This document shows, piece by piece, positions 6,906 to 15,733 of a DNA stretch of 64,000 nucleotides. Made by a program: the position numbers and the translations under genes. Below the pieces are notes generated by a model, which worked only from the letters and a program-made list of their open reading frames with translations, searched no databases and was not told where the DNA came from. Position 1 is the first letter of the stretch. Every line of letters begins with the position of its first letter. Source of the DNA: Halarchaeum grantii (GTDB taxonomy: Archaea > Halobacteriota > Halobacteria > Halobacteriales > Halobacteriaceae); the NCBI RefSeq assembly GCF_014647455.2, contig NZ_BMPF01000006.1, positions 1 to 64,000 on the forward strand, read 5' to 3'.

Positions 6906-9154
6906 CAGCGGTGGCGCTCGCGCTCGCGTTCGGCGACATCGCCGCCCCACGCGTCACAGAGCGGTTGCAGCGCGTCGCCGAACGCCCGCATCGCCTGCCC
7001 CGTCGAGTGATAGCCGAGCTCCTCGGCGACGTCGTCCCACGGCCGACACTGGAGGAGCTTCAGGACGAGGAGGCGCTCGCGGCGCACGGCGTCGCGCCCC
7101 TCGGCGGCGAGCGCCGGTGCGTCCTCGCGGACGAGCGCGCAAACGGCGAGACGCCGGAAGGGTTCGGGGTCGACGCTGTACATCGCGGAGCCGTACGCGG
7201 AGCCGGCGACGACGCGCCACCGGTCGTCGGAGAGGCCGGGTTCGGGGGTGGCGTCGCAGGCGGCGAGCGCGGCGCGCGCGACGTCCGCGTCGAGGTCGGT
7301 GAGGCTGTCCGCGAGCACGCCGGCGATGCGCTCCGTGAACCACGCCTCGTGGCGCGCGGCGAGCGCCTCCCCGCGCTCGCTCAGTGGGTCGAGCATGATC
7401 GCGGAGTACTCGCCGCTCGTGTCGTTTCGCGTGGTGGAGAGGTGGACGGTCGAGAACCCGTTTCGCGCCCAGAAGGAGAGCAGGTCGGGCGTCGCGCCGT
7501 AGCCGACGCCGAGCCAGTCCGCCTCCCGGAACTCCTCTCGAACGCCGTCGAGGAGCGCGGAGCCCAGTCCCCGGGAGCGCGCGGCGTGGTGAGTGGCGAT
7601 GCGGACGATGCGGTGGCCGACGGGCGCGGCGGCCGCCTCGTCGCGGAGTTGGCTCGTGAGGACGTCCGGGAGCATGTTCCCCTTCACGCGGCTCCCGGTG
7701 TACATCGCCTCGCGCGTCTCGGCGTCGAGGCCGCCCTCGCGGGCGAGGAGGCAGACGGCGACGACGTGGCCGTCGTGGCACAGCGCGCGGACGCGGAGGT
7801 TCGGCGCGTCGAGGAGGCGGGCGAGGTCGTCGGGTTCGGTCCGGTAGTGCGCGGCGACGAGCAGGCCGAACGCCTCGCGGAGTAGGTGTTCGTCGTCGGC
7901 GAGCGTCGCCTGCTCGAGGGCGACGTACTCGCAGGCTTCGGGGTCGGCGTCCGCGACGAGCGGGTCCACGGGCGGGCGGGCGTCCAGGAGGAGCGCGCGG
8001 AACGCCCACACCTCGACGGGGTCGCCGACGGCGTATCGGATGGGGTCGTCGAGCCGAACGTCCGCCACGTCGAGGTCGCTCCCCGCGAGCGTCTCCCGGA
8101 AGCGCACGTCGAAGCCGCGTCCGGCGCCCTCGTAGCCGTGGACGGTCGTGGTGAACGCGACGCGGGGGGCGTCGAGGAACGCCTCGAGGAGGCGGACGGG
8201 GAGCGCGGCGGCCTCGTCGACGAGGGCGACGTCCGGGTCGCCGGGTAGGTCGGCGGCCGCCGGCGGCTTGGCGAAGCGGACGCGGCCGCCGTCCGCGAGG
8301 GCGAGTCGCGTCGTCTCCGAGCGGTCGTACTCAGCGTCGAGGCGGTCGCAGACGTCCTCCGCGCGCGCGTAGAGTTCGCGGACGCTCCGGAACGCCGGGG
8401 CGGTGACGAGGACGTCCAGCCCCTCTTCCGCGAGGCAGGCCGCCGCGATGCCGGCCGCGCTCGACTTCCCGCGCCCGCGGTCGGCCTCCGCGACGACCGC
8501 CGATCCCGGGTCGCGGAGCGCCTCGAAGGCGTGGACCGCGTCGACCTGATCGGGAGTACGGCAGGCCTCGTAGGCCGCCCGCGGGAAGGCGTGCTCGTCG
8601 GGCGGCGACGGCTCACGGCGGGCGAGACGCGGCGCCGGATATGTGAGGCCGTCGTCCGCGACGGTTCCGGTGTCGACGTCGACGATGGCGACGCCACGGT
8701 GCGCGCGCAGCGTGGCGACGAGGCGGGCGCGAAAGCGGCCCGCGACGTCGTCGCGGTCGAACGGCGGGACGGCCATCCCCTCGTCGAAGCGGTCGCGTCG
8801 CGCCGACCATTCGTCGAGCGGCGGCGTGACGAGCACGAGGAGGCCGCCGCCGTCGACGGCACCGGTCACGCGCCCGAGGGCGTTCGGCCGGCACTCCTCG
8901 CGCGCGTCGTAGACGACGGCCTCGCGCGTGGTCCCGAGGAGGGCGCCCGCATCGCGCGGCGTCACGTGCTCGCAGGCGAGCGCGTCGCGGTGGCCGACGA
9001 GCGTCGCGTCCGCCATCGCGACGTCGGCGGCGTCCAGCGCCTCGCGCGCGGCGTCGAGGCCCGCGTCACCGGCCCCCGAGAGGACGAGCAGGCGCCGCTC
9101 GTTCGTCGCGCGGGCCTCCGCGCGGAGTCGACTGGCGACGTCCCTGACGGTCAT
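6905..9154 (-). CDS. tmcA: tRNA(Met) cytidine acetyltransferase TmcA
   Basis: A 749-residue enzyme that puts the N4-acetyl group on cytidine in RNA using acetyl-CoA and ATP; archaeal members may also modify rRNA or many RNAs. Domains in order are an N-terminal DUF1726-like part (about 1-180), a RecA-like helicase module with Walker A DRGRGKSSA near residue 224 and Walker B ALVDEAAALP, a GNAT acetyltransferase domain (about 400-560, with the acetyl-CoA loop HHAARSRGLGSALL), and a C-terminal tRNA-binding domain. ATG at 9154 is preferred over GTG one codon earlier. The DUF456 gene overlaps its end. Confidence 0.93.
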   Translation of the reverse strand: MTVRDVASRLRAEARATNERRLLVLSGAGDAGLDAAREALDAADVAMADATLVGHRDALACEHVTPRDAGALLGTTREAVVYDAREECRPNALGRVTGAVDGGGLLVLVTPPLDEWSARRDRFDEGMAVPPFDRDDVAGRFRARLVATLRAHRGVAIVDVDTGTVADDGLTYPAPRLARREPSPPDEHAFPRAAYEACRTPDQVDAVHAFEALRDPGSAVVAEADRGRGKSSAAGIAAACLAEEGLDVLVTAPAFRSVRELYARAEDVCDRLDAEYDRSETTRLALADGGRVRFAKPPAAADLPGDPDVALVDEAAALPVRLLEAFLDAPRVAFTTTVHGYEGAGRGFDVRFRETLAGSDLDVADVRLDDPIRYAVGDPVEVWAFRALLLDARPPVDPLVADADPEACEYVALEQATLADDEHLLREAFGLLVAAHYRTEPDDLARLLDAPNLRVRALCHDGHVVAVCLLAREGGLDAETREAMYTGSRVKGNMLPDVLTSQLRDEAAAAPVGHRIVRIATHHAARSRGLGSALLDGVREEFREADWLGVGYGATPDLLSFWARNGFSTVHLSTTRNDTSGEYSAIMLDPLSERGEALAARHEAWFTERIAGVLADSLTDLDADVARAALAACDATPEPGLSDDRWRVVAGSAYGSAMYSVDPEPFRRLAVCALVREDAPALAAEGRDAVRRERLLVLKLLQCRPWDDVAEELGYHSTGQAMRAFGDALQPLCDAWGGDVAERERERHR

Positions 9155-9267
9155 CACGCGGGGTTGGCGCGCGAGGAGGAAGGGCGTTGCCCTCCGGGCC
9201 GCGACGCGGGCATCGTGACCGCGTCCGGTCCGTGCCTCGCGTTCGCACTCCGGCGGGCTTTGAAAGC

Positions 9268-9277
9268 GTTTTTAACC
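9268..9277 (+). promoter_or_regulatory. TATA box of the rpl7ae operon
   Basis: GTTTTTAACC is the best TATA-like element ahead of rpl7ae. It lies about 120 bases from the start codon, so transcription should begin near base 9300 and leave a leader of about 90 nt, unlike the leaderless genes around it. Confidence 0.5.
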
Positions 9278-9320
9278 GAGGGGTTCGGAATACGGGGTAC
9301 AGCCTTCGGGGGGTCATGAT

Positions 9321-9358
9321 GCTCCTAGTCGCCACGGGACTTCGGTCGGCGGCGGAGC
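9321..9358 (+). promoter_or_regulatory. Structured leader of the L7Ae operon
   Basis: Within the leader, GCTCC (9321-9325) pairs with GGAGC (9354-9358), CGCC pairs with GGCG inside it, and GAC/GTC (9338-9340/9345-9347) closes a very stable C(UUCG)G tetraloop. ATGATG just upstream resembles a box C element. L7Ae binds kink-turns and some archaeal L7Ae mRNAs are autoregulated through their leader, so this could be a feedback site. I could not draw a convincing kink-turn with tandem G-A pairs, so the regulatory role is inference. Confidence 0.4.
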
Positions 9359-9392
9359 GCAAGCCCGCCCGAGGGAGTAGGTGAACGTAAAA

Positions 9393-9755
9393 ATGCCAGT
9401 ATACGTTGATTACGACGTCCCGGCCGACCTGCAGGAGCGAGCGCTCGAAGCGCTCGAGGTTGCCCGCGACACCGGTAGTGTCAAGAAAGGTACGAACGAG
9501 ACGACCAAGGCCGTCGAGCGCGGCAACGCGGACCTCGTCCTCGTCGCCGAGGACGTCTCCCCCGAGGAGATCGTCCTCCACCTCCCCGAGCTCGCCGACG
9601 AGAAGGGCATCCCCTACATCTTCGTCGAGACGCAGGACGAACTCGGCGTCGCCGCCGGTCTCGAAGTCGGTTCCGCCGCCGCCGCCGTCGTCGACGCCGG
9701 CGACGCGGAGGACGACGTCGAGGACATCGGCGCGAAGATCGAGGAGCTGAAGTAA
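9393..9755 (+). CDS. rpl7ae: Ribosomal protein L7Ae
   Basis: A 120-residue kink-turn binding protein of the 50S subunit that also serves in box C/D and H/ACA RNPs and RNase P. The conserved core [20 protein letters not shown] (about residues 34-53) and the loop [13 protein letters not shown] are present. ATG at 9393 gives the standard start; an in-frame GTG four codons earlier is less likely. It heads a four-gene operon with S28e, L24e and Ndk, a standard archaeal arrangement, and has a long structured leader. Confidence 0.97.
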
Positions 9756-9759
9756 CCCC

Positions 9760-9987
9760 ATGAGTGCCGAGGAATCGGAAACCCAGGATTCCACGTCCGC
9801 CGAAGTCATCGAGGTCGTCGGCAAGACCGGGATGCACGGCGAGGCGATGCAGGTGAAGTGCCGACTTCAGGAAGGCTCCAACCAGGGCCGCATCATCACG
9901 CGGAACGTCCTCGGCCCGACGCGGGTCGGCGACGTCCTCCAGCTGCGTGAGACGGCCCGCGAAGCCGACTCCATCGGAGGTCAGTAA
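9760..9987 (+). CDS. rps28e: Ribosomal protein S28e
   Basis: A 75-residue small-subunit protein with an OB-like fold. The family signature is complete: VIGKTG-like [17 protein letters not shown], then [20 protein letters not shown], then the C-terminal LRETAREA. It starts four bases after the rpl7ae stop, and its TAA overlaps the next ATG (TAATG), so the operon is translationally coupled. The acidic N-terminal extension of about 13 residues is usual for haloarchaea. Confidence 0.97.
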
Positions 9988-10181
9988 TGCCCCAGACCCG
10001 AGAGTGTGACTACTGTGGGGCGGACATCGAGCCCGGGACGGGTACGATGTTCGTCTACAACGACGGACGCACCGTGCACTTCTGCTCGTCGAAGTGCGAG
10101 AAGAACGCCGACCTCGGCCGCGAACCCCGCGAGCTCGAGTGGACCGACGAGGGCCACGCGCAGGCCGGCGAGGGCGAATAG
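9987..10181 (+). CDS. rpl24e: Ribosomal protein L24e
   Basis: A 64-residue zinc-ribbon protein of the large subunit. All four ligands are visible: C-x2-C in CDYCG near residue 7 and C-x3-C in FCSSKC near residue 32-36. The start ATG shares its A with the rps28e stop, and ndk starts directly after its own stop. Confidence 0.97.
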
Positions 10182-10664
10182 ATGAGCCACCACGACGAGC
10201 GGACGTTCGTGATGGTCAAGCCCGACGGCGTCCAGCGCGGTCTCATCGGCGAGATCGTCGGCCGCCTCGAAGACAAGGGCCTGAAGATGGTCGGCGGGAA
10301 GTTCATGCAGATCGACGAGGAGCTCGCCCACGAGCACTACGGCGAGCACGAGGGCAAGCCCTTCTTCGAGGGCCTCGTCGAGTTCATCACCTCCGGACCG
10401 GTCTTCGCGATGGTCTGGGAGGGCGCGGACGCGACGCGACAGGTTCGCCAGATGATGGGCGCGACGGACGCGCAGGAGGCCGCTCCCGGCACCATCCGTG
10501 GTGACTTCGGGAACGACCTCGGACACAACGTCATCCACGGAAGCGACCACGAGGACGAGGGCGCGAACGAGCGCGAGATCGCCCTCTTCTTCGACGAGGA
10601 CGAACTCGTCGACTGGGACGCCAACGAGGCGACCTGGGTCTACGAGGACGCGGGCGACCACTAA
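10182..10664 (+). CDS. ndk: Nucleoside diphosphate kinase
   Basis: A 160-residue enzyme that equilibrates NTPs and NDPs through a phospho-histidine. The N-terminal [17 protein letters not shown] and the active-site histidine in NVIHGSD (about residue 119) are intact. It is somewhat longer than bacterial Ndk because of an acidic C-terminal tail, common in halophiles. It is the last gene of the L7Ae operon; a pyrimidine-rich run (TCTCTCCTCTCCGTTCTCTC) follows within 30 bases and may serve as terminator. Confidence 0.97.
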
Positions 10665-10756: not shown

Positions 10757-10766
10757 GCGTAAATAG
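10757..10766 (+). promoter_or_regulatory. TATA box of first large paralogue
   Basis: GCGTAAATAG is centred about 27 bases ahead of the GTG at 10789, which implies a leaderless transcript. The identical ten bases stand at the same distance before the second paralogue. Confidence 0.65.
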
Positions 10767-10788: not shown

Positions 10789-12849
10789 GTGACGAGACGT
10801 GACGAACCGGTCGCTTTCGAGGCGGACGGTGACCGCCTTGACGTCCACGATACGGTGATGGACGCGACGTGCACCTTCACGGCGAGCGGGCCGCTCGACC
10901 CGGTCCGTGTCTCGACGGATCGGTTCCTCTTCCCCGTCGACGCCGCCGTCTCCGTGGAGACGGACGAACTCACGCTCCCGGCGCACGCGGGTCTGCGCGT
11001 CCGCTCGGAGGCCGGCGACGTCGTGGCGTCCGTCCCGGGCGAGCGCAAGTCCTTCACGCGAGGGGTCTACTACATCGAAGTGTCGTTGGGCTGTAAGCTC
11101 TATCTGAAGATGTTCGACGCCGCGTTCACGCTTCGCGGCGAACCGACGGACGGGCCGACCCCGACGACGGTCGAGTTCGAGGAGACGGCGCGCGTCGCGG
11201 TGGGTGCGCGCTCGCTCCACGAGCGGCCGGCGGCGACGATAACGATGCCGGACGAGCCGAGCGCGCTCCGGGAGGCGTTGCCGTATCTGGCGTCGGGGAT
11301 AAAGGAGTGGTCGTGCGAGCGGTCGTGGCCGACGCTGCGCGGGCACCCGCCACGGCTCGAACGCGGGGACGCGCTCGCCATTCCCGACGCGCTCTCGAGG
11401 CCGGAGACGGGAGTGACGATCGCGGTGCCCGAGACGTACGCCGCGCTCTACACGGTCGCGCCCCTCGCCTACTACCTCGGTGCCGACATCGTTCCCGCCA
11501 CCGACCCCGAACTCCGACTCGACAACGGATACACCGAGGCGTTCGCACAGCACGGAGAGTCGCTCGGGGAGGCCACGCGGGCGCTCCTTCGACACTGTTT
11601 CTTCCTGGACTCGCTGGTGCGCGTCGGTGGCTACTACACGATGGAGCGACAGGAGTACGAGGCCGTCGCGGGCGACCTCCCGTTCTACCCACCGAATCTC
11701 TACGAGGCTTCCATCCCCGAACAGCTGATGGAGTACCTCGAAGTCAAGGCAGAGCTCCTCTCACCCTATCTCCCGATGCATCAGTACGAGGCGACGCTTC
11801 GCGCGGCACCTACGGACGTCGAACTCCTCCCGTTCCTCCTCGACGACTTCGTGCCCGTCCGCGTCTCCGGGGCGCGACGAGCGAGCGCGAGCGACGCGCT
11901 CTACTCGGCCTACAGCACGGACCCGGTCCCGGAGGGAGCGACGAAGCTCTCCGTCGCGGGCTTCGAACACGGCCTCGACGCACCACCCCGGTCGGTCGAA
12001 TCGGAACGCATCGCACTCCTCGGCGTCGGGGGTGACGTGATGGACGCGCTCGCCGCCGTCTTCATCGACCACGATGACGGGTCGTCGTACGAGGCGGCGA
12101 CCATCGACCGCGCGAAGCCGACGGTGGCTGCCGTCGAGGACGCGCTCTCCTCCGACTACGACTTCGTCCACGTCGAGGCGCCCATCACCGCCGACGGAAT
12201 CGAGTGCGTCGACGGCGTCCTCGATCCGGCGACACTCGATAACGTCTCGGCAGGGATCGCCTCGGTCGTCGGCCCGCTGTCCGAGGCGGGCACGGCTCTC
12301 GACGCGCTCGTCGAGCGTGGTGCGACCATGGGTGTCGCCTCCGAATCCATCACGAGCCGTGCGCTCGGCCACGTGCTCGGCCGCCTCCTCTCCGGCGCGC
12401 CGTTCGCGCAGTCCGTCGTCTGGGCCGACCACGACGGTGCGTACCGATTCGCGGGGGACGTCGTGGCGTGTCCGATAGTGCGCGAGGACGGGTCGACGCT
12501 CCCGGAGTACGTGCTTCGGTCGACGGCGCCGGACAGCCACCGGGTCTGGGTCGGGGCGTGGTCGGGGTTCGGCGGCGACAGCGGAACGGCCGTCGGGTTG
12601 GTGTCGGAGCACGTCGTCCAGCCACAGCGCCTCGCCGGAACGCTCCTCGAACAGCCTGCGTCGCTGTCGAGCGAGGAAGTCGCCGACCTCATCGAGGAGC
12701 GCGACAGCGTCTACGTACTGAACGGGGAGACCATCCAGCACGACCACGCACTCACGCCCGCCGACGTCCGCGACTCCGCGCGCCGCGCGCTCGACGACGG
12801 CGAGGCCGGGGTACGGAGTGGGTCCGAGACGACTGACCGCGAAGCGTAA
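10789..12849 (+). CDS. Large haloarchaeal protein of unknown function, copy 1
   Basis: A 686-residue soluble protein without signal peptide or membrane segment, paralogous to the next gene along its whole length. The N-terminal part (to about 130) is beta-rich (TCTFTASG, STDRFLFPVD). The middle (about 137-245, VGARSLHERPAATIT to YYLGAD) is nearly identical to copy 2. The C-terminal third (about 450-600) has an alpha/beta texture. From memory, related proteins of about 680 residues are common in haloarchaea and have no assigned function. The GTG at 10789 is chosen because it aligns with the start of copy 2 and lies at leaderless distance from a TATA box; the longer frame overlaps ndk. Confidence 0.75.
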   Translation: MTRRDEPVAFEADGDRLDVHDTVMDATCTFTASGPLDPVRVSTDRFLFPVDAAVSVETDELTLPAHAGLRVRSEAGDVVASVPGERKSFTRGVYYIEVSLGCKLYLKMFDAAFTLRGEPTDGPTPTTVEFEETARVAVGARSLHERPAATITMPDEPSALREALPYLASGIKEWSCERSWPTLRGHPPRLERGDALAIPDALSRPETGVTIAVPETYAALYTVAPLAYYLGADIVPATDPELRLDNGYTEAFAQHGESLGEATRALLRHCFFLDSLVRVGGYYTMERQEYEAVAGDLPFYPPNLYEASIPEQLMEYLEVKAELLSPYLPMHQYEATLRAAPTDVELLPFLLDDFVPVRVSGARRASASDALYSAYSTDPVPEGATKLSVAGFEHGLDAPPRSVESERIALLGVGGDVMDALAAVFIDHDDGSSYEAATIDRAKPTVAAVEDALSSDYDFVHVEAPITADGIECVDGVLDPATLDNVSAGIASVVGPLSEAGTALDALVERGATMGVASESITSRALGHVLGRLLSGAPFAQSVVWADHDGAYRFAGDVVACPIVREDGSTLPEYVLRSTAPDSHRVWVGAWSGFGGDSGTAVGLVSEHVVQPQRLAGTLLEQPASLSSEEVADLIEERDSVYVLNGETIQHDHALTPADVRDSARRALDDGEAGVRSGSETTDREA
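11198..11510 (+). repeat. Near-identical tract shared by the paralogues (copy 1)
   Basis: These 313 bp match 13287-13599 without gaps, with 11 differences in my hand alignment, most of them silent. Outside the tract the two genes are clearly diverged. This is the expected footprint of gene conversion. Confidence 0.85.
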
Positions 12850-12853
12850 ATAG
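12844..12853 (+). promoter_or_regulatory. TATA box of second large paralogue
   Basis: GCGTAAATAG again, centred about 27 bases before the GTG at 12875. The TAA stop codon of the first paralogue (12847-12849) lies inside this box, so the promoter is embedded in the end of the upstream gene. Confidence 0.65.
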
Positions 12854-12874
12854 GCGAGCGGATTACCAGGAGGC

Positions 12875-14908
12875 GTGACGACGCAGGGGGAGACGCTCGT
12901 CGAGTTCGACGCTGACGGCCGGACGCTCACCGTCCGCGACGTGGTGATGGAGGCCTCGTGTACGTTCACGGCGAGCGACCCGACCGATCCGATTCGCGTA
13001 TCGACCGACCGATTCCTCTTTCCGGTCGACGCAGCCGTCTCCTTCGAGACGGCATCGCTCTCCCTTCCCGCACACGCCGGCGTGTACGTCCGCGATGAGG
13101 AAGGACAGGTGCTCGGTCATCCGACCGAAACATCGACGGAGTACCTACCCGGGACGTACTACGTCGGCATCACGTCGTACTGCAAGCTCTACGTGAAGGT
13201 GTTCGACGCCGCCCTCGAAACCTCGATGGACCTTCACAACGGCACCGGCGCAGTCGACCTCGAGTTTGGCGAGCCCACTCGGGTAGCGGTGGGTGCGCGC
13301 TCGCTCCACGAGCGGCCGGCGGCGACGATAACGGTACCGGACGAGCCGAGCGCGCTCCGGGAGGCGCTGCCGTATCTGGCGTCGGGGATAAAGGAGTGGT
13401 CGTGCGAGCGGTCGTGGCCGACGCTGCGTGGGCACCCGCCACGGCTCGAACGCGGGGGCGCACTCGCCATTCCCGACGCGCTCTCGAGGCCGGAGACGGG
13501 GGTGACGATCGCGGTGCCCGAGACGTACGCCGCGCTCTACACGGTCGCGCCCCTCGTCTACTATCTCGGCGCCGACGTCGTTCCCGCCACCGACCCCGAA
13601 ATCCGCCTCAAAAACGGCTATACGGAGCCACTCGGCGCTCCCGATGGCGCGCTTACGCGCCGGGTGCGTTCGCTGCTCGGTCGATGCCTCTTCTTGGATT
13701 CGCTCGTTCGAACCGCCGGGTATCACTCGGTCGATCGACAGGAGTACGAGGCCGTCGCGGGCAACCTCCCGTTCTACCCGCCGGAACTCTACGATGCCGC
13801 TATTCCCGAACAGCTGATGGAGTACCTCGAAGTCGAGGCGGAACTCCTCGAACGCTACGTCCCGGCGTGGTCCTACGATGTCGTCCTCGATGCTGAGCCA
13901 GCAGACGCCAAGCTCCTCCCGCACGTCCTCAACTCGGTCTCGCCGGTCCGGATGCGGGAAGTCGGGACGGGTGTGGAGTCGATTTGCGACGGGTACGGGT
14001 CGTCTCCTGTTCCGACTGGAGCGACGCACCTCTCTGTCGCGGGCTTCGAACACAACCTCGATGCACCGCCGCGAGAAGTGGCGTCGGAACGCGTTGCGCT
14101 CGTCGGCGTCGACGCCGAGAGCGACGCGATGGACGCGCTCTCGGCGACACTCACGGGAACGGAGCACCGCGAGGTCGAGAAACCGTTCGACGTGAAAACG
14201 GTGGAGGCGACACGCGAGGGCGTTCGAACGGCTCTCGAAACGGAGGCGTACGGGTTCGTCCACATCGGCGTCCCGCTGACCGACGCGGGGTTCGTCTGCG
14301 CGGACGGCGTGCTGCGTCCCGAAGATGTCGAGGAGGTGGCAGCACGCGTAGTGTCGGTCGTCGGCGATCTGTCTGTCACCGGGTCCGCGGTCGACGCGTT
14401 CGTCGAGCGTGGCGCGTGCCTCGCGTTCGCGACGACGGCGCTGCCGAGCCACCTCCTCGGGCACCTGCTCGGGAGACTGCTCTCGGGCGCGCCGTTCGCG
14501 AAGGCGGTGGAGTGGGGCGGCTTCGACGGGATCCGCTATCGGTTCGCCGGGGATGTGGCATCGCGTCTCGTGGCACGCGAAGGGGGGACGTGGATCCCGG
14601 AGTACGCCGTCGAGTCGATGACACCGGACGAGCACCGGCTATCGGTCATCACGTGGGGTGGTGATGTGGGGGCGGTGAGCGCCATCGAGTCGCCGTATAT
14701 CGATTCCGGGCACTGGTTGGCTGGACAGCGATGCGAGCAGCCCGGGACGTTGACGAGCGAGGAGGTCGTCGATCTCGTCGACGACCAGGATGGGGTCTAC
14801 GTGCTGAACGGCGAGGTCGTTCAGCGCGACGGCGTGACTGTGACGGCCGTCCGCGACTCCGCGCGCCGCGCGCTCGACGACGTCGCGTCGTCGGAGACCA
14901 CCGAGTGA
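12875..14908 (+). CDS. Large haloarchaeal protein of unknown function, copy 2
   Basis: A 677-residue paralogue of the preceding gene, 25 bases behind it and with its own promoter. It shows the same layout: beta-rich N terminus, a highly conserved middle (GARSLHERPAATITVPDEPS to about residue 240), a variable central part containing IPEQLMEYLEVEAELLERYV, then FVHIGVPLTDAGFVCADGVL near residue 464 and LLGRLLSGAPFAKAVEW. That last region is reminiscent of a CHAT-type caspase fold, but no catalytic His-Gly or Cys pair is evident, so I do not call it one. The C-terminal VRDSARRALDD is identical in both copies. Function unknown. Confidence 0.75.
   Translation: MTTQGETLVEFDADGRTLTVRDVVMEASCTFTASDPTDPIRVSTDRFLFPVDAAVSFETASLSLPAHAGVYVRDEEGQVLGHPTETSTEYLPGTYYVGITSYCKLYVKVFDAALETSMDLHNGTGAVDLEFGEPTRVAVGARSLHERPAATITVPDEPSALREALPYLASGIKEWSCERSWPTLRGHPPRLERGGALAIPDALSRPETGVTIAVPETYAALYTVAPLVYYLGADVVPATDPEIRLKNGYTEPLGAPDGALTRRVRSLLGRCLFLDSLVRTAGYHSVDRQEYEAVAGNLPFYPPELYDAAIPEQLMEYLEVEAELLERYVPAWSYDVVLDAEPADAKLLPHVLNSVSPVRMREVGTGVESICDGYGSSPVPTGATHLSVAGFEHNLDAPPREVASERVALVGVDAESDAMDALSATLTGTEHREVEKPFDVKTVEATREGVRTALETEAYGFVHIGVPLTDAGFVCADGVLRPEDVEEVAARVVSVVGDLSVTGSAVDAFVERGACLAFATTALPSHLLGHLLGRLLSGAPFAKAVEWGGFDGIRYRFAGDVASRLVAREGGTWIPEYAVESMTPDEHRLSVITWGGDVGAVSAIESPYIDSGHWLAGQRCEQPGTLTSEEVVDLVDDQDGVYVLNGEVVQRDGVTVTAVRDSARRALDDVASSETTE
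13287..13599 (+). repeat. Near-identical tract shared by the paralogues (copy 2)
   Basis: Partner of 11198-11510; see that entry. Confidence 0.85.
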
Positions 14909-14971: not shown

Positions 14972-15733
14972 GTGACGAACGCCCAGATCACTCTCGTCCA
15001 ACTCGACAACTACGGACCGTGGACGGTGACGCCGGAGCCCCGCCGCGAGGCCGACCTCCAGACGATGCAGTCGCGTCTCTTCGCGGACCTCTCGCAGTTC
15101 TTCGGCACCCGCGACGGCTACGTCTTCTTCACGCGCTTCGACAACATGATCGCGGTGACGAACGGCGCCGACCTCGAGGACCACGCGCGGGTGCAGGAGT
15201 CCATCCGGAACCGCTATCCCGTCACCGTGAGCCTCGGCATCGGGACGGGCGCGAGCCCGACGGACGCGCTCGTCGACGCGACCGCACACCTCCAGGCCGC
15301 CGGGAGCGCGCAGGACGCGGAGCGCCGCGAGGTGTTGGGCGGCCAGCCGCTCGCCGACGACGAACGCGCGGACGACGACGTCCACATCGCACACTTCGAC
15401 GTGAATGACGCCACCGGGAAGTACACGGACGAACTCGACGCGTTCTCGACGTTCGTCCGCATCGAACAGGGGTACGCGTCGCTGATGCGCGTCCTCCACG
15501 ACGAGTACGGTGGCCTCGGGTTCTTCGTCGGCGGCGACAACGTCGTCGCGATCGTTCCCGAACTCGACCGCGCGGCGTACGAGGCGGTCATCGAGCACGT
15601 CCGCGCGGAAGCCGACATGTCGCTGAAAGTCGGTGTCGGGAGCGGCCACACCGCGACCGACGCGGGGTTGGCGGCGAAGCACGCGCTCGAACGCTGCCGC
15701 GAGGACGGGACCATCGTCGAGGGCGACGTCTGA
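14972..15733 (+). CDS. gch3: GTP cyclohydrolase III
   Basis: A 253-residue archaeal enzyme that hydrolyses GTP to a formylated pyrimidine intermediate for riboflavin and F420 synthesis. It is built from two polymerase-palm-like halves: the first opens LVQLDNYGPWT (residues 7-17) with the FFTRFDNMIAVTNG hairpin, and the second has LGFFVGGDNVVAI near residue 183. These motifs and the length match the family. The start is GTG at 14972. It is the only riboflavin/F420 gene here apart from RibL at 36.9 kb. Confidence 0.92.
   Translation: MTNAQITLVQLDNYGPWTVTPEPRREADLQTMQSRLFADLSQFFGTRDGYVFFTRFDNMIAVTNGADLEDHARVQESIRNRYPVTVSLGIGTGASPTDALVDATAHLQAAGSAQDAERREVLGGQPLADDERADDDVHIAHFDVNDATGKYTDELDAFSTFVRIEQGYASLMRVLHDEYGGLGFFVGGDNVVAIVPELDRAAYEAVIEHVRAEADMSLKVGVGSGHTATDAGLAAKHALERCREDGTIVEGDV

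Follow-up and report, generated by a model that had tools for sequence, protein, structure and literature searches.

Evidence for recent gene conversion between two tandem genes encoding predicted CHAT-fold pseudoproteases in Halarchaeum grantii

Introduction

The stretch of DNA analyzed in this study (the window; 64,000 nucleotides, positions 1 to 64,000 of contig NZ_BMPF01000006.1) belongs to the 3.0 Mb genome of a haloarchaeon of the genus Halarchaeum, H. grantii. It contains two genes, here called A and B, which are arranged head to tail and encode proteins of 686 and 677 amino acids that are 58% identical. A preliminary description, made from the letters of the window, had reported both open reading frames (ORFs), which were confirmed here, and had pointed to a 313-bp tract in which the two genes are nearly the same. 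The locus raises two questions. How did two otherwise diverged paralogues come to share this tract, and what are the proteins, for which the same description gave no known function?

Results

With regard to the first question, recent gene conversion between A and B was well supported by sequence comparison. The tract is ungapped with sharp edges, and its 11 differences, a count that agreed with the earlier one, consist of 6 silent changes and 5 changes altering 4 residues (M153V, D194G, A227V and I234V in the numbering of A); the earlier statement that most of them are silent therefore holds, although barely. Nucleotide identity between A and B was 97% in the best segment compared with 63% in the rest, which bears out the strong divergence previously noted beyond the tract. 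Where A and B encode identical residues, the codons differed at 4/87 positions in the best segment and at 118/384 in the whole pair, and none of 2000 permutations was as extreme (0/2000). The synonymous divergence (dS) between A and B was 0.08 in the tract and 0.72-1.24 in the other regions, where the silent divergence of the two genes equals that between species. Moreover, the same tract was compared with the syntenic orthologues that two other Halarchaeum genomes, G002 and G003, carry in single copy. The dS values were 0.77-0.81 (A with G002, A with G003 and B with G003), nucleotide identity was 75-78%, and about half of the four-fold sites differed (19-22 of 38-40), compared with 3/48 between A and B. 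In trees of the tract, A and B were joined on very short branches, and the alternatives received p values of 0.026 and 0.031 in the nucleotide approximately unbiased (AU) test.

The preliminary description, which had proposed recent conversion, had also set a comparison against it: equally low divergence among orthologues and paralogues would speak for the DNA itself, or a conserved RNA, being under strong purifying selection. Such selection, acting without conversion, could be expected in a tract coding for the part in which the protein is best conserved. In this study, however, low divergence was found between A and B only, the orthologues being at a dS of about 0.8 in the same tract, and an Rfam search of the tract gave no match up to an E value of 1. 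These results support conversion and effectively exclude selection on DNA or RNA. Another explanation is a recent duplication of the entire gene, after which all but the tract diverged fast by diversifying selection on the flanks. It is true that A and B outpace their neighbors, with 51-57% identity to their orthologues while most neighbors are above 78%. However, the silent sites of the flanks are as diverged as those between species (dS 0.7-1.2, compared with 0.08 in the tract), and selection on the flanks at the protein level does not raise silent divergence tenfold, which makes this explanation highly improbable. Two further candidates were rejected. Assembly collapse is unlikely because 11 scattered differences persist, and a foreign origin of the tract, considered for its G-rich third positions, was rejected since the orthologues have the same bias in this part. 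As to the direction of conversion, the codon-usage likelihoods tied, and the changes in the tract that are private to A and to B were about equal in number.

In the proposed mechanism, ectopic conversion would have replaced about 313 bp of one copy by the other, later than the separation of H. grantii from its known relatives (dS 0.08 compared with about 0.8), and it would have been confined to the part where A and B were already most alike. Within the best conserved region (residues approximately 137-330), the tract makes up the first half, in line with the earlier remark that no other part of the protein is conserved so well. Gene conversion in Haloferax volcanii is very efficient, and its tracts between alleles are long (PMC8223754). 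A tract of 313 bp between paralogues that are otherwise 63% identical fits ends set by heterology. The pair would be a clean haloarchaeal example of heterology restricting an ectopic conversion, in a group whose allelic tracts are reported to be much longer. A second, shorter stretch of high similarity (Table 1) possibly reflects an older conversion or protein constraint alone.

Table 1. Coordinates of the genes, conversion tracts and neighboring elements within the window
Feature	Position	Strand	Remarks
Conversion tract in A	11198-11510	+	Residues ~137-241; makes up the first half of the core and includes the family motif ERSWPTLRGHPP; dS 0.08 to B
Conversion tract in B	13287-13599	+	11 differences in 313 bp; dS 0.08 to A
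Second, shorter high-similarity stretch in A	11659-11748	+	Residues ~291-320; 89% nucleotide identity to B; from sliding windows
Gene A	10789-12849	+	686 amino acids, GTG start; dyad-less CHAT-fold protein (predicted pseudoprotease); ORF; full-length hidden Markov model match to the family
Gene B	12875-14908	+	677 amino acids, GTG start; predicted dyad-less CHAT-fold paralogue; ORF, AlphaFold2 model, structural matches
ndk (nucleoside diphosphate kinase)	10182-10664	+	Conserved left neighbor; Pfam NDK, E 5e-56; synteny
GTP cyclohydrolase III	14972-15733	+	Conserved right neighbor; Pfam GCH_III, E 6.7e-90; synteny
TATA-box-like TAAATAG	10760-10766	+	29 nucleotides upstream of the start of A; from sequence
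TATA-box-like TAAATAG	12847-12853	+	28 nucleotides upstream of the B start; overlaps the A stop codon; from sequence

Similar mosaics were found in other pairs of the family. In the tandem pair of Halospeciosus flavus, a segment was 94% identical and the rest 62% (permutation p 0/2000), and the two copies of Halovivax asiaticus showed a mosaic located in the CHAT half of the protein (p 0/2000). For the tandem pairs of several further relatives, p values lay between 5/2000 and 35/2000, and some of the tandem pairs tested, such as that of genome G008, had no mosaic. Uneven constraint on the protein is not accounted for in these p values; the A/B pair and the Halospeciosus pair alone were also checked against related sequences. 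The comparable mosaics in other haloarchaeal pairs indicate that conversion in this family is a recurrent process and an ordinary one for tandem paralogues. In addition, Halobacterium sp. TGN-42-S1 carries three tandem CHAT genes with an intact catalytic dyad (L042:6072-13306) that share blocks of near-identity, and repeated conversion is likely there.

With regard to the second question, A and B are predicted, from their sequences and a structural model, to be CHAT-fold pseudoproteases of the caspase-like clan CD. Neither protein matched any model of Pfam, NCBIfam or PADLOC. The earlier statement of no known function has to be revised in view of the CHAT-fold identity, which came from the profile match of a paralogue, the model and the catalytic dyad columns. 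A paralogue in the same genome (C1:472483) passed the cut-off of the Pfam CHAT family (PF12770) with 25.4 bits (cut-off 24), and 21/24 of the family members bearing the His-Cys dyad matched CHAT at E<=1, the best at 1.4e-5. The AlphaFold2 model of B had a predicted local distance difference test score (pLDDT) of 91.8 and a predicted template modeling score of 0.92. The predicted layout comprises an N-terminal beta-sandwich (residues approximately 5-144), a caspase-like core (approximately 145-330), a half with the CHAT/separase fold (approximately 331-570) and a small C-terminal cap. The highest Z score of the model was obtained with DdvA (8rw5, 8rot; Z 12.8, root-mean-square deviation (rmsd) 3.8 over 203 residues), followed by SAVED-CHAT (Foldseek E 1.8e-4; Z 12.2, rmsd 3.2 over 158 residues) and separase (Z 11.2, rmsd 4.4 over 207 residues), and the structural matches of the beta-sandwich (N-terminal 144 residues) were middling, with Z about 7. 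A second model, that of a dyad-bearing relative in Halovivax asiaticus, had a pLDDT of 84 and matched gingipain (Z 20.4), separase (17.3), SAVED-CHAT (16.9) and the Craspase TPR-CHAT protein (14.3). When the family profiles were searched against the sequences of solved structures, no credible match was obtained.

The family alignment comprised 116 members, and the tree was built on residues 9-330 only. Both the His in (Y/F)(I/V)GH and the Cys in LN(A/G)C were kept in 51/116 members and neither in 63/116, the other two being truncated or gapped there. At these columns A has P and P, and B has P467 and D498, while the two intact paralogues of the same genome retain the dyad. Since the catalytic His and Cys are gone, the CHAT half of A and B is not expected to act as a CHAT-type cysteine protease. 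The dyad-less members formed one clade of 61 with a support of 1.0. The tandem pair of genome G013 (L046:6026-8152 and 8204-10294), in which YIGE and FIGQ replace YIGH, represents an independent loss. The identity of the core (137-330) was 0.61 in the dyad-less clade compared with 0.50 among dyad-bearing members, whereas that of the CHAT half was 0.27 compared with 0.45. The following residues were invariant in both groups in the set aligned for modeling: R142, P148, E178-P182, R185, P188-P189, L227, Y230, G232, R279, G282 and G599. The majority of them fall inside the conversion tract. Moreover, the core motif ERS(W/F/Y)PT(L/M)RG(H/Y)PP was retained after the loss of catalysis, which points to a candidate binding site.

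The fast divergence of the CHAT half in the dyad-less clade (identity 0.27), together with a frameshifted N-terminus in the draft assembly of one sister species, could mean that the dyad-less proteins are decaying relics without function. However, nonsynonymous divergence was below dS in every region, which indicates that the genes are under constraint, and the clade of 61 members has full-length ORFs in many genera and a core more conserved than that of the intact family, and the syntenic place is kept. Decay is therefore very unlikely. In genome G010, a truncated dyad-less copy of approximately 236-259 amino acids (L044:8376-9152) adjoins a full-length one.

The locus was compared with those of H. 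nitratireducens, H. acidiphilum and H. rubridurum. The order ndk, X, GTP cyclohydrolase III, DNA polymerase IV and tpiA is conserved in all three, with a single gene at X where H. grantii has A and B. The pair is thus either peculiar to H. grantii, or the second copy was lost in the other Halarchaeum. Identity to these species was 51-57% for X and approximately 78-97% for most syntenic neighbors (62-77% for a few), which indicates that the family is fast-evolving. The H. acidiphilum orthologue (L038:4413-6374) has a frameshift near its N-terminus, and in this draft assembly of 170 contigs it may be a sequencing error or a decayed copy. The GTG starts of A and B are of the leaderless type, and TAAATA or TAAGTA stands at the equivalent upstream position in the genes of the three sister species. 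The TATA-like elements 28-29 nucleotides before each GTG, being kept in the sister genes, suggest that A and B are probably transcribed separately, B from its own promoter.

Discussion

Taken jointly, the conversion and the pseudoprotease identity of A and B are held with good confidence. The model of B resembles several known systems in part. It shares with the CHAT family (PF12770), which includes SAVED-CHAT and the TPR-CHAT protein of Craspase, the fold of residues approximately 331-570, and the dyad-bearing paralogues keep both His and Cys; A and B differ by lacking the dyad and a Pfam match, and by a beta-sandwich and caspase-like core instead of SAVED or TPR. The protease region of separase, a pseudo-caspase followed by an active caspase domain, was among the best structural matches, and some alignments spanned both the core and the CHAT half (model range 162-571). 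However, no sequence relation to separase was detected, and A and B lack an active domain. DdvA is a transmembrane anti-sigma factor, whereas neither a membrane segment nor an anti-sigma part is obvious in the sequences of A and B. No sign of membership in a known defense system was seen: A, B and five relatives had no match at E <= 1 among the PADLOC models (2023 library), although absence from this library excludes little, and no recurrent defense neighbor was seen at the inspected loci of dyad-less genes.

The working analogy adopted here is c-FLIP, which represents the inactive type of caspase paralogue. The likeness is that of a dead paralogue beside active relatives of the same fold. The proposal is that the function resides in the conserved core rather than in the dead CHAT half; A and B would be cytoplasmic pseudoproteases that share a signal or binding partner with the cell's intact CHAT paralogues and modulate them as a decoy, a scaffold or an inhibitory subunit. 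Conversion would maintain the similarity of the common binding core, and the remaining parts would be free to drift. Among 40 genomes examined, 32 held the family, and all of those with dyad-less members also held dyad-bearing ones (12/12). This co-occurrence, together with the constrained core and the CHAT half without catalysis, favors a regulatory role with a ligand or partner shared with the intact CHAT proteins over the other functional readings, although by itself such a role is a tentative proposal with a somewhat less than even chance.

Several points weigh against this account. The co-occurrence is weak evidence (hypergeometric p ~0.04), the intact paralogues of H. grantii lie on another contig with no physical or genetic link found to A and B, and the core might serve an unrelated activity in the dyad-less proteins. 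In addition, the AU test on the full non-tract set rejected none of the three topologies, so outside the tract either A or B, or neither, may be nearer to the sister orthologues.

The preliminary description had suggested a different function, with paired or alternative specificities. In the version considered here, A and B are kept as such a pair and conversion is selected to preserve the common core. The conserved core beside strongly different N-terminal residues 61-136 and CHAT halves would suit such a pair, as would the TATA-like element before each gene and the two or three dyad-less copies in other genomes. However, three other Halarchaeum species have a single copy at the same locus, and conversion of tandem copies needs no selection where haloarchaeal conversion is very efficient (PMC8223754). 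Alternative specificities are therefore considered unlikely, and the regulatory role is preferred.

Archaea are said to be without clear caspase homologues, yet caspase-like activity is reported for Haloferax volcanii (PMC3615174). The dyad-bearing CHAT proteins are concrete haloarchaeal candidates for this activity, and A and B belong to their large dyad-less sister clade. No paper on CHAT in haloarchaea was found in openly accessible texts, and a large haloarchaeal CHAT family that includes an ancient clade of catalytically dead members, as predicted here, is apparently undescribed. This finding outranks in interest the conversion, which is ordinary. In its widest form, the proposal would be that haloarchaea have widespread caspase-fold CHAT proteases accompanied by ancient dead regulators, with a shared core homogenized by recurrent conversion. 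This form is speculative and probably does not hold in full. If true, it would provide an archaeal counterpart of active/inactive caspase pairs, and the intact members could be the source of the haloarchaeal caspase-like activity, for which a gene has been lacking so far.

The dyad-bearing relatives have neighbors of their own. A DUF7504 (PF24336) gene was present near dyad-bearing CHAT genes at 16 loci in several genera (for example L103:5025-5882 and L052:6789-7475). In the inspected loci it lay directly upstream of the CHAT gene on the same strand and was not beside dyad-less genes, and its protein is a possible partner of the intact proteases. At L035:7030-7845, the H. grantii paralogue that passed the Pfam cut-off is followed by a gene for a TbsP-like transcriptional regulator. 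A dyad-bearing CHAT member is also carried by Halobacterium salinarum (L126).

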